64,000 nucleotides of DNA from Actinomycetospora termitidis. Its GTDB lineage: Bacteria > Actinomycetota > Actinomycetes > Mycobacteriales > Pseudonocardiaceae. The notes below the pieces were generated by a model, which ran no database searches, had not been told where the DNA came from, and saw only the letters and a program-made list of their open reading frames with translations. Shown here one piece after another: positions 56,116-59,208 of this stretch. Within the stretch, counting starts at the first letter, position 1. The number at the start of each line of letters is the position of its first letter. The translations under genes were made by a program, and so were the position numbers. Where the stretch lies: positions 310,001 to 374,000 of the forward strand of contig NZ_JASVWF010000005.1 of NCBI RefSeq assembly GCF_030286555.1, read 5' to 3'.

Positions 56116-56408
56116 CCCGCGCCGGCCGTGCACATCGACGAAGATCAACAGGCCCGCAGCGCTGTGGGGCGGCCCTCCGGAGAGCACTGAGGACCCGCTC
56201 GTCGGGCGGAGGGCCTGCCTGGCGAGCGACGACCAGCTTGTCGCGGGCCACCGACGTCCGGGGCACCACCTCGTCGCTGTGAATCCGAACGACAAGATCA
56301 TCCGGCGGACGAAGGAGCCCGCGACAGGATGCGCGCCGTCCTCCTGTCGTTGCGGTTCGCCGCGACAAGCCGACGGACGGGCGGGGCGGGACTGCAGCCG
56401 ACCCGGGG
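56116..56408. other. Non-coding region with several hairpins
   Basis: About 290 bases between convergent genes. Visible are GGCCCTCCG with CGGAGGGCC (near 56174-56208) and CGACAGGA with TCCTGTCG (near 56321-56348), either of which may be a terminator. A 10-base piece CAAGATCATC at 56293-56302 equals the outer end of repeat family B but has no partner. I see no gene. Confidence 0.45.
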
Positions 56409-56699
56409 TCACGGGAACGGCGACCGCTCTCCGGAGGCGTCGAACATGCTCACGTCGACGGCGAGGAAGGCATCGCCCACGTCCGGCGCGTCGCACCGCG
56501 CCCGCCACGCGTCCAGTTCCTCCCACGACCGCCATCGCTCGAAGTTGTTGATGCGCGACGGATCGACCGAGTCGGCCGTCAGCGCGGCGTCGAGACACCC
56601 GGGCGCCTCCCGGGACCGTCGGACCAGATCGGCGAACCTCTCGACCAGCTCGTCGCGCTCCTCGGGGTCGACCGTCACGTGACCGGCGATGATCAGCAT
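56409..56699 (-). CDS. Antibiotic biosynthesis monooxygenase (ABM) domain protein
   Basis: A 96-residue dimeric alpha/beta-barrel-type protein. MLIIAGHVTVDPEERDELVE, SREAPGCLDAALTAD and NNFERWRSWEELDAWRA fit the ABM domain. Such proteins are cofactor-free oxygenases or binding proteins of varied role. AGGA stands about eight bases before the ATG at 56699. Confidence 0.8.
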   Translation of the reverse strand: MLIIAGHVTVDPEERDELVERFADLVRRSREAPGCLDAALTADSVDPSRINNFERWRSWEELDAWRARCDAPDVGDAFLAVDVSMFDASGERSPFP

Positions 56700-56785
56700 C
56701 GATACATCCTAGCAATCGCCTGATCCTGATGTAGGACCGATCGTCGGCCGGAGACCGTGACCACAGCCCGCCCGCGAGCCGTTGA

Positions 56786-56816
56786 CCCGCCGTCGGGAAC
56801 CTGGTGAAGATCGACG
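56786..56816 (+). promoter_or_regulatory. Possible promoter of the leader peptide and monooxygenase
   Basis: TTGACC near 56792 and a GAAGAT-like -10 about 18 bases on precede the leader peptide start by about 30 bases. The -10 is weak, so the call is tentative. Confidence 0.35.
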
Positions 56817-56843
56817 GCGCATCGCAGGACGAGGAGGACCGAG

Positions 56844-56915
56844 ATGGGCGTGTTGGTGAGCCGCCGCTTCCTCGACCTCATGTTCCTCTGCAGCTGCGCC
56901 TGTCGCCCCTTCTGA
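56844..56915 (+). CDS. Polycysteine leader peptide (cysteine-responsive attenuator type)
   Basis: A 23-residue peptide with ATG at 56844 and TGA at 56913-56915. It has basic residues R7-R8, D11-L12, and a cluster C16-S-C18-A-C20-R21. This is the layout of actinobacterial leader peptides ahead of sulfur genes (RRxxDL, then several Cys), which in mycobacteria act as cysteine-responsive attenuators. GGAGG lies six bases before the start. The next gene, 70 bases on, is a flavin monooxygenase of the sulfur-scavenging class, which fits. Confidence 0.8.
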   Translation: MGVLVSRRFLDLMFLCSCACRPF

Positions 56916-56985
56916 TCGGCCTCGACCGCGCCCGGGCCCGGTGCCCGCGGCAGCGTCCTCCTGCCTGCGATCCGAAGGACCTCCC
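56916..56985 (+). promoter_or_regulatory. Putative attenuator between leader peptide and monooxygenase
   Basis: The 70 bases between leader stop and the next start include G/C-rich complementary runs (CCGCG, CCCGGG, CCCGCGG near 56925-56951), which can form alternative hairpins that mask or free the following AAGGA. Low cysteine would stall ribosomes on the leader and change the fold. That is inference. Confidence 0.4.
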
Positions 56986-58302
56986 GTGACCCGTCAGCTC
57001 CACCTCGGTGGTTTCCAGATCGCCTCGCACGTGCCGCACTCGCACGCCGCGTGGCGCCACCCCGCCTCCGACCTCGACTTCCTCGGCCCCGACTACTGGC
57101 ACCGCGTGGGTCGCACGCTCGAGCGCGGTCTGTTCGACTTCGTGTTCTTCGCCGACCTGCTCGCTGTTCCCACCAACTTCGGTGGCGACGAGGCCGAGGC
57201 CCTCCGGCGCGGGACGCAGGCGAGCGCGACGCTGGACCCGTCGCTCGTCGTCGCCAGCATCGCCGCGGTCACCCGGCACCTCGGCGTGGCCATCACGAAG
57301 AGCACGACCTACTTCCACCCCTTCGAGCTCGCGCGGATCTTCGCGAGCCTGGACCACCTCAGCCGGGGTCGGGCGGGCTGGAACATCGTCACCTCCCTGT
57401 CGAGCGCCGAGGCGCACAACTTCGGGCTCGAGAAGGCCCTCGACCACGACCTGCGCTACGACCGGGCGCAGGAGTTCGTCGAGACCGCGGTCGCGCTGTG
57501 GGAGAGCTGGGAGCCGGGCGCCCTGGTCGGCGACAAGAAGGCCGGCTTCTTCGCCGACCCCGACAAGGTGCACCGCGTCGACCACGACGGCGCCTTCTAC
57601 AAGACCCGCGGCCCGCTGCCGACCCCGCGCTCGCCGCAGGGCCGCCCGGTCCTCTTCCAGGCCGGGGCGTCGCCCAAGGGCAAGGCCTTCGCGGCCCGCT
57701 GGGCGGACGCGATCTTCGAGATCGACCCGACCCCCGAGGGCCGCCGCGCCTACTACGACGACGTCAAGGGCCTCGCCTCGGACGCCGGCCGCAACCCGGA
57801 CGACGTCAAGATCCTGCCGTCGTTCATCCCGTTCGTCGGCGAGACCAGCTCCATCGCGCGGGAGAAGCAGGCCTTCCACAACGAGCTCGCCGACCCGGTG
57901 TCCGGGCTGATCACGCTGTCCGTGCACACCGACCACGACTTCTCGACCTACGACCTCGACGCCCCCGTCGAGCAGGTCGAGGTGCCCGGCTCCCAGGGCC
58001 TGTTCGACGTCGCCCGGCGCCTGTCCGAGCGGGACAGCCTGACGCTGCGCGACATCGGCCGGCTGTACGCGCAGGGGATCCTGCTGCCGCAGTTCGTCGG
58101 TACGGCCTCCGAGATCGCCGACGAGATCGAGGCGTCGTTCACCGGTGGCGAGGCCGACGGCTTCATCCTCTCGGCCGCCCAGCTCCCCGGGACCTTCGAC
58201 GACTTCGTCGACCAGGTGGTCCCGGAACTGCAGCGTCGGAAGCTGTTCCGCGAGGAGTACACCGGGACGACGCTGCGCGCCCACCTGGGGCTCGACGGCT
58301 GA
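56986..58302 (+). CDS. LLM-class flavin-dependent monooxygenase (NtaA/SnaA/DszA group)
   Basis: A 438-residue luciferase-like FMN monooxygenase. LHLGGFQIASHVPHSHAAWR, FADLLAVPTNFGGD, VAITKSTTYFHPFELARIF, GRAGWNIVTSLSSAEAHNFG and VLFQAGASPKGKAFAARWAD are markers of the NtaA/SnaA/DszA group, which oxidise nitrilotriacetate, organosulfur compounds or dibenzothiophene sulfones with FMNH2. The Cys leader peptide upstream supports a role in sulfur acquisition. AAGGA lies seven bases before the GTG. Confidence 0.9.
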   Translation: MTRQLHLGGFQIASHVPHSHAAWRHPASDLDFLGPDYWHRVGRTLERGLFDFVFFADLLAVPTNFGGDEAEALRRGTQASATLDPSLVVASIAAVTRHLGVAITKSTTYFHPFELARIFASLDHLSRGRAGWNIVTSLSSAEAHNFGLEKALDHDLRYDRAQEFVETAVALWESWEPGALVGDKKAGFFADPDKVHRVDHDGAFYKTRGPLPTPRSPQGRPVLFQAGASPKGKAFAARWADAIFEIDPTPEGRRAYYDDVKGLASDAGRNPDDVKILPSFIPFVGETSSIAREKQAFHNELADPVSGLITLSVHTDHDFSTYDLDAPVEQVEVPGSQGLFDVARRLSERDSLTLRDIGRLYAQGILLPQFVGTASEIADEIEASFTGGEADGFILSAAQLPGTFDDFVDQVVPELQRRKLFREEYTGTTLRAHLGLDG

Positions 58303-58344: not shown

Positions 58345-59208
58345 ATGCGGGTCACGACGGACGACGGGGTCGGCCTGGCGGTGTACGACACCGGCGCCGG
58401 AGACGAAGCGCAGCGGAGCTCGACCATCGTCGACGAGGCCGACCCCGGCACGCCGATCCTCTTCCTGCACGAGTTCGGCGGCGACCACCGCTCGTGGGCC
58501 CCGCAGTTCGGGCACCTCGCCGGGCGGTCCCGCTGCGTCACCTACGACGCCCGCGGCTACCCGCACTCCGACGTCCCGACCGACCCGGCCGCGTACTCCC
58601 AGGAGCGGGCGGTCGCCGACGCCGTCGCGGTGCTCGACGCGCTCGGCATCGAGCGCGCGCTCGTCGTCGGGAACTCCATGGGCGGGTTCGCGACGCTGCA
58701 CCTGGGCCTGACCCACCCCGACCGTTGCGTCGGGCTCGTTGTTGCCGGCTGCGGCTACGGCGCCGCCCCCGAGCGGGCCGAGGCGTTCCGGGCGGACGCC
58801 CTCGCGCTGGCCGACGCCTACGAGCGGGACGGCTCGGCCACCGTCGCCGCCGACTACGGCAACCGACCCGCCCGGCTCAGCCTGCGTGAGCGGGACGAGC
58901 ACGCCCACGACGAGCACCTGCGCATCCTCGCCGAGCACGACCCGGTCGGCGCGGCCCTGACGATGCGCGGGGTCCAGGCCGCCCGACCCTCGCTCTACGA
59001 CCTGCGCGAACAGCTCGCGACCATGACGGTGCCGACCCTGCTCGTGGTCGGGGACCGCGACGACGAGGCCATCGACGCGACGCTCATGCTGCGCCGCGCC
59101 CTACCGGTCGCCGATCTCGCGGTCCTCCCCCGCGCCGGGCACCTGACCAACCTCGAATACCCGGAGATCTTCACCCGGCTCGTCGAGAACCACCTGGCCG
59201 GACGCTAG
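58345..59208 (+). CDS. Alpha/beta hydrolase
   Basis: A 287-residue serine hydrolase: HEFGGDHRSW (oxyanion), the nucleophile in VVGNSMGGFATLHL, the catalytic Asp in VVGDRDDEAID and the His in RAGHLTNLEYP. The ATG at 58345 has GGGGGA five bases upstream. It is 42 bases after the monooxygenase gene and probably shares its transcript, perhaps cleaving its product. The substrate is unknown. Confidence 0.88.
   Translation: MRVTTDDGVGLAVYDTGAGDEAQRSSTIVDEADPGTPILFLHEFGGDHRSWAPQFGHLAGRSRCVTYDARGYPHSDVPTDPAAYSQERAVADAVAVLDALGIERALVVGNSMGGFATLHLGLTHPDRCVGLVVAGCGYGAAPERAEAFRADALALADAYERDGSATVAADYGNRPARLSLRERDEHAHDEHLRILAEHDPVGAALTMRGVQAARPSLYDLREQLATMTVPTLLVVGDRDDEAIDATLMLRRALPVADLAVLPRAGHLTNLEYPEIFTRLVENHLAGR

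Follow-up and report, generated by a model that had tools for sequence, protein, structure and literature searches.

A putative cysteine-responsive leader peptide with a conserved UGU codon ahead of a DszA-class monooxygenase gene in Actinomycetospora termitidis

Introduction

A short reading frame rich in cysteine codons that stands directly ahead of a flavin monooxygenase gene raises the question of whether it is a genuine regulatory leader and, if so, how it could control the gene behind it. In mycobacteria, Cys-rich uORFs have been proposed as attenuators (PMC4633059), and according to PMC9031893 and PMC13236596, Canestrari 2020 showed that in M. smegmatis sORFs with Cys codons attenuate the genes behind them. 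The cysteine sORFs described in PMC9094748 lack the usual G/C skew, which was related there to their cysteine codons, and PMC8079986 lists eight leaders of S. lividans, none of them named for cysteine. The reading frame studied here was found in a stretch of 64,000 nucleotides of Actinomycetospora termitidis DNA, analysed as a whole and referred to below as the window; positions are those of its forward (+) strand.

The leader ORF and the genes behind it

The leader ORF (56844..56915, + strand) runs from ATG to TGA, comprises 23 codons plus TGA and encodes the peptide MGVLVSRRFLDLMFLCSCACRPF. Its cysteines lie at residues 16, 18 and 20, encoded by TGC, TGC and TGT and spaced by Ser and Ala (C-S-C-A-C), so that the Cys codons are not contiguous, and R7-R8 and D11-L12 are also present. 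The length, the cysteine positions, these two residue pairs and a strong Shine-Dalgarno sequence had been named in a first-pass annotation, and all were confirmed in the sequence. The Shine-Dalgarno sequence AGGAGG, read from the sequence at 56832..56837 (+), is located 6 nt upstream of the ATG. A candidate promoter (56782..56813, +) consists of TTGACC at 56782-56787 and GGTGAAGATCG at 56803-56813, with TTGACC plus GGTGAGGATCG as its counterpart in A. soli; it is a weak candidate, since the alignment was judged by eye only and a consensus scan found no sigma-70 site. A leaderless start seems unlikely given AGGAGG 6 nt ahead of the ATG and TTGACC upstream. On the minus strand, a small frame beginning at 56699, by eye similar to ABM-type monooxygenases, has its upstream region in common with the leader, and the stretch 56385-56699 contains a stop.

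The leader stop is followed by a G/C-rich spacer of 70 nt and then by the GTG start of an FMN-dependent monooxygenase of the NtaA/SnaA/DszA class (56986..58302, +; 438 aa), with the Shine-Dalgarno sequence GAAGGA at 56974-56979. The protein scores 521.1 bits against TIGR03860 (NtaA/DmoA family; cut-off 279.7), and its closest solved chain is DszA (PDB 5tlc, E=9.6e-129), which together suggest that the gene directly downstream of the leader is sulfur-linked; its best plasmid relative shares 49.1% identity. An alpha/beta hydrolase (58345..59208, +), 43 nt 3' of the monooxygenase, is a possible operon partner. The first-pass annotation had tied this hydrolase to the leader as well, and this part of the proposal is weak, as in A. 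soli the gap is ~300 nt wide, and of 80 ortholog loci searched by tblastn only that of A. soli gave a homolog; none was found at the A. endophytica locus within 3 kb on each side. The hydrolase was therefore rejected as a conserved partner.

Family membership and conservation of the leader

To place the peptide, a profile of the actinobacterial cysteine leader family (A1) was built in this analysis, with most rows coming from the window's own genome; a non-circular test profile retained 14 rows of A1, without the window leader and its two orthologs. With the latter profile, the window leader ranked first among the 1067 six-frame ORF ends of the window (26.9 bits, E=1.6e-7), and the runner-up reached an E-value of 0.087. 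The sole NCBIfam match of the peptide is NF042936 (leader_Ms4527A, Cys-rich), with 22.6 bits (E=5.6e-5) over residues 4-22, below the curated cut-off of 45, against which the A. soli ortholog scores 30.8 bits. For NF042934 (cis_reg_atten putative leader peptide, cut-off 27 bits), the peptide is not listed up to E 10 and stays below the cut-off, and a search of the window's genome up to E 1 returned nothing at the leader's place; the A. endophytica leader reaches 27.6 bits, above the cut-off, and the A. soli leader 21.2. By sequence comparison, the window leader is thus related to, though diverged from, the actinobacterial leader peptides modelled by NCBI as NF042936 and NF042934, and lies below the cut-offs of both.

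At the same place, A. soli has the leader MRVLVSRRFVDLMRTCSCACRPF and A. endophytica the one-Cys leader MFLAVRRRHVDLLRTASDGCRA. The window and A. soli leaders differ by four synonymous and four replaced codons, and the tail CSCACRPF and its TGC, TGC and TGT codons are unchanged between them. The expectation that cysteine would be conserved at the codon level across relatives was therefore borne out in full in A. soli and for the last TGT in A. endophytica, and failed for the other two positions in the latter, which has only one Cys. Among these three sister species the locus has three cysteines in two and a single one in A. endophytica, the last UGU being kept throughout, which offers a natural comparison of sensor strength.

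A chance reading frame in an ordinary 5' untranslated region could also be short, fall below the NCBI cut-offs and be missing, as this ORF is, at 78 of 80 close monooxygenase orthologs. However, such a frame can hardly be reconciled with the rank and E-value under the non-circular profile, with conservation in A. soli despite four synonymous differences, or with a recognisable relative in A. endophytica, and we regard it as hardly credible. Because the profile rank, the independent NF042936 match and the same-place conservation in A. soli and A. endophytica agree, the window ORF is confirmed, as far as sequence comparison goes, as a genuine cysteine-type leader beyond chance. The reading of the locus as such a leader ahead of an NtaA/SnaA/DszA-class monooxygenase is upheld by the NF042936 match, the profile rank and TIGR03860, and its kinship to mycobacterial leaders, in another host (Actinomycetospora) and ahead of another gene, is likewise supported.

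How far the leader extends depends on whether the peptide or its pairing with this enzyme is followed. The monooxygenase orthologs examined were the best 80 of 141 confirmed, with DNA searched up to 3 kb upstream and less for some (72 bases in one case). Among these best 80, only two loci, both from Actinomycetospora, combine the leader with the orthologous monooxygenase; the leader profile had no match within that distance ahead of the other 78, none of which is named Actinomycetospora. One further match, on the opposite strand (E 0.54), was judged spurious. As 78 of the 80 orthologs show no such leader in the DNA searched, the sulfur link of the window monooxygenase is one that rests on three Actinomycetospora and on likeness to DszA, and the pairing of the leader with this monooxygenase looks genus-special. 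As for the leaders as such, every one of the 80 family genomes searched, among them that of the window, has an A1 match (E 0.001), as have 14 of 246 genomes of the phylum, again including its own (E 0.0001); in the latter search scoring stopped at 35 candidates per genome, and a miss therefore carries little weight. On these profile searches, the leaders are widespread in the family; together with NCBI's general 'putative leader peptide' model, this refutes the idea that the window is a lone case outside mycobacteria.

Related leaders and a sulfur regulon in the same genome

The genome of the window holds 19 leader-like A1 matches, the window's included, at E <=0.01 among 150 scored candidates, a census that is partly circular because most A1 rows were drawn from this genome. 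Fifteen of the 19 lie inside a single island of ~80 kb (contig C30, 138-218 kb). NF042934 alone finds eight places above its cut-off in the genome, two of them only with neighbours in frame, and is above cut-off in none of 14 control genomes, and NF042936 has no match above its cut-off in the window's genome. Matches below the cut-offs of NF042934 and NF042936 also occur in unrelated control genomes (6/14 and 9/14, respectively).

Of the 17 called proteins downstream of these leaders, 15 were submitted to NCBIfam, and nine of the 15 are sulfur-linked by their best match: SfnG, SfnB, DszC, an SsuA family protein, two SsuC proteins, an alkanesulfonate monooxygenase, an adenylyl-sulfate kinase and a mercaptopyruvate sulfurtransferase. 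Only SfnG and the adenylyl-sulfate kinase are above a cut-off, and the other seven matches are below. A tenth protein is of the nitrite/sulfite reductase kind, with nitrite reductase as its best match, and the remaining five comprise four non-specific matches (an ABC binding-protein type, two luciferase-like enzymes and an MFS carrier) and one protein without a match. Within the island (C30:138000-218000), the genes behind the leaders include sulfonate, DszC-like, nitrite/sulfite reductase and adenylyl-sulfate kinase genes, and leaders are also clustered in other genomes of the genus. Control by cysteine is thus probable for a DszA-like monooxygenase, whose genus has islands of sulfur genes that such leaders appear to control.

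Start-site pairing and the proposed mechanism

The first-pass annotation had also described a G/C-rich spacer able to refold. The spacer is G/C-rich and its predicted structure covers the monooxygenase start site; its stability is less convincing, as 56889-57000 folds only slightly better than shuffled sequences (z -1.32; 15/200 as stable), and the longer stretch 56815-57010 gives z 0.95, with 166/200 as stable. In the minimum free energy fold of 56889-57000, a leader-end arm (56902..56917, +) is predicted to pair with an opposing arm (56969..56990, +) in three blocks: 56902-56906 with GUGAC at 56986-56990, which includes the start codon, 56908-56912 with GAAGG of the Shine-Dalgarno sequence at 56974-56978, and 56914-56917 with GAUC at 56969-56972. 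Between the arms lies a G/C-rich internal spacer hairpin (56924..56957, +) without a T run. The segment CGATCCGAAGGA of the opposing arm is identical in A. soli, and the main pairing blocks are the same in both species, so that they provide no covariation.

On this basis, we propose that the window leader is probably a ribosome-controlled cysteine leader that acts as a translational attenuator of the monooxygenase. A ribosome would translate the 23-codon leader and, when Cys-tRNA is ample, would reach the leader stop and depart, after which the leader end, from the last Cys codon to the stop, would pair with the monooxygenase Shine-Dalgarno sequence and GUG and close the gene. When cysteine is scarce, the ribosome would stall at Cys16, Cys18 or the UGU-coded Cys20 and cover the leader-end arm, so that the monooxygenase could be translated and sulfur freed from an organosulfur compound, the presumed class of substrate.

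The stall was modelled by blocking 27 nt, as covered by a ribosome at Cys20. Opening the start site in the window costs 12.9 kcal/mol, which falls by 7.5 kcal/mol on blocking, an effect equalled by 0/200 shuffled leader ends and 0/200 synonymous recodings and second among the 53 leaders folded. In A. soli the effect is 4.3 kcal/mol (equalled by 0/200 shuffles and 17/200 synonymous recodings), and in A. endophytica it is -0.2, equalled by 123/200 recodings. Resting closure is less distinctive, with synonymous recodings equalling it in 43/200 cases for the window, 53/200 for A. soli and 151/200 for A. endophytica; because this closure is within the range of synonymous controls, confidence in the mechanism was slightly lowered. 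In these models, the pairing is thus weakly supported by A. soli and is not supported by A. endophytica or by the family as a whole.

The family-wide comparison used filtered leaders: matches more than 12 residues from a stop and leaders below 17 bits were dropped (126/149 kept), followed by nine of the 126 without a called gene, and by pairs that were separated by more than 180 nt or had a weak Shine-Dalgarno sequence (82/117 kept), of which 53 were folded with a maximum of three members per gene group. Averaged over 25 gene groups, the saving is 0.48-0.65 kcal/mol when the leader end is blocked and 0.08-1.07 at other positions, with no peak at the leader end; native duplexes of leader end and start site scarcely outdid mismatched ones (p values of 0.045 and 0.063) and did not outdo shuffles (p 0.5). 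Pairing between leader ends and the Shine-Dalgarno sequence of the next gene was therefore unsupported as a general rule and was rejected as such. Since no leader-end peak was seen and the duplex tests were marginal or negative, start-site closure would be a property of the window leader and a few others and is not shown for the family in these models.

This restriction bears on a second reading, in which the cysteine sensor acts on transcription, with Rho-dependent or RNA-polymerase-coupled termination in the spacer after the ribosome leaves. The leaders kept have peptide and codon features in common, no common downstream RNA architecture was found among them, and the 82 with a usable gene pair lie anywhere from ~30 to 180 nt ahead of the gene; moreover, start-site pairing is not general across leaders, and Rho-linked premature termination at uORFs has been reported for mycobacteria. 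Against it, the pairing in the window covers the start codon as well as the Shine-Dalgarno sequence, and blocking it has a larger effect than in the synonymous controls. An intrinsic terminator is also absent: 56600-57100 contains no terminator-like site, 56840-57000 nowhere has three or more consecutive Ts, and of 82 leader-to-gene stretches just one has a T run of at least four, all of which disfavours intrinsic termination. Overall, control of transcription seems rather unlikely here. Rfam gave no match at gathering for the whole window and none up to E 1 for 56700-57100.

A strong leader Shine-Dalgarno sequence would also suit a leader that merely feeds ribosomes to the gene by reinitiation or translational coupling, without cysteine sensing, as has been proposed at leader peptides (PMC4833913). 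But the leader stop and the start codon are 70 nt apart in the window, and as much as 180 nt elsewhere among the leaders kept. Coupling would also give no reason for a conserved Cys, for its UGU codon or for the sulfur regulon; this makes it improbable, and cysteine-responsive attenuation of translation remains the preferred reading.

A rare UGU codon at the conserved cysteine

The conserved sensor Cys codon of the window leader (56901..56903, +) is the rare TGT, as it is in A. soli and A. endophytica. Codon choice at this position was followed in a genus set of 126 leaders from regions of 13 genomes, less five leaders that ended before the aligned Cys; the regions were chosen around best-scoring matches and the orthologs are non-independent, and the leaders were found by protein profile, leaving codon choice unselected. 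The conserved Cys, nine residues after Asp, is TGT in 102/121 leaders of the genus, in 41/61 elsewhere in the family and in 25/25 farther away (from 27 leaders of 13 genomes, seven of one genus). By comparison, TGT accounts for 4-9% of Cys codons in nearby genes: it makes up 9/215 in 115 downstream genes of the genus, 33/472 in island ORFs and 92/1033 in a looser ORF set, and 1/11, 3/41 and 5/64 in nearby genes of the family and farther genomes. Leader Cys codons other than the last are TGT in 7/72 cases. TGT is the majority in all 17 peptide clusters (single linkage) and is found in 17/18 aligned leaders of the window's genome, the window's included. The lone exception there, with TGC, is the leader at C30:217845-217946 ahead of the nitrite/sulfite reductase.

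Several origins of this preference were considered. Before Arg codons (CGN), TGT is used in 75/83 leaders against 8/24 in genes and 24/95 in the looser set, and before Pro in 17/28 leaders against 14/95 before CCN in genes. Codon-pair bias was therefore rejected as the cause, as TGT before CGN is raised in genes but stays below the leaders; codon context may still form part of the preference. A hairpin within the leader, in which CGAC at the Asp codon would pair with the GUCG made possible by UGU, was rejected for want of covariation (C/G by G/C counts 105, 44, 34 and 11; p 0.57). A distinct RNA partner for the third base was also rejected: the likeliest partner is A in 27/46 U-ended cases and G in 7, is unclear in 12, and is spread over the leader, spacer and start site. 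Changing U to C at the sensor codon costs 0.47 kcal/mol on average, and changing C to U elsewhere 0.69; with scattered partners and a cost no larger than that elsewhere, the third base appears to have no distinct structural role. Separately, the Arg four residues before Asp in the genus set has a third-position G+C of 0.52 (CGT 38 and CGA 21 of 124) against 0.95 in downstream genes, which may reflect how close this Arg lies to the start codon.

The motif R-x-x-x-D-L is kept at the peptide level across leaders, many of which have one Cys. This could mean that the peptide itself acts, by nascent-chain arrest or by redox or metal sensing through CxCxC, and not through Cys-tRNA supply, and cysteine homeostasis or redox status was offered as an alternative for the mycobacterial uORFs in PMC4633059. 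The single-Cys ortholog of A. endophytica implies, however, that a CxCxC metal site is not required, and the codon-level bias at Cys fits tRNA supply better, so that action of the peptide itself is very improbable.

tRNA-Cys reads UGU by wobble, and rare Leu codons in leu leaders are known to tune the attenuator. In line with the preferred reading of a sensor of Cys-tRNA supply, selection on decoding may hold the sensor Cys to the rare UGU, a slow codon that would let a small drop in charged tRNA-Cys stall the ribosome, and the window would be a variant, within a single genus, with extra UGC cysteines ahead of the shared UGU; we consider this explanation evenly poised between right and wrong. 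The UGU bias would allow one synonymous base change to show whether the sensitivity of the attenuator depends on codon choice as well as on the amino acid. Judged by titles and abstract openings, a reading that did not take in Canestrari 2020, no paper was recognised as dealing with a preference for UGU in such leaders. As no report was found, the UGU-coded sensor Cys is presented as a new observation and as the part most deserving follow-up.

Comparison with known systems

DszA (PDB 5tlc) is the nearest solved relative of the window monooxygenase; the dsz gene neighbours are not matched, as the window gene adjoins genes for the hydrolase and a GtrA-like protein. Among leader families, the Ms4527A family (NF042936) resembles the window peptide over residues 4-22 and differs in that the window has F-L before D in place of the common H-V, in keeping with 22.6 bits against 45. 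NF042934 covers the A. endophytica ortholog and the eight other places in the window's genome, with the window peptide outside. The uORFC-8-2 cysS leader of Rhodobacterales is likewise a short ORF with Cys codons for which stalling-based control has been proposed (PMC8632094); it differs from the window leader by tandem Cys codons, in which UGC is dominant, and by an intrinsic terminator. The mycobacterial polycysteine sORFs, described as leaderless with contiguous Cys codons (PMC9031893), likewise place their Cys codons late in a short ORF that precedes the controlled genes, and attenuation there is described as depending on cysteine supply, whereas the window leader has a strong Shine-Dalgarno sequence, spaced cysteines and a DszA-class monooxygenase downstream.
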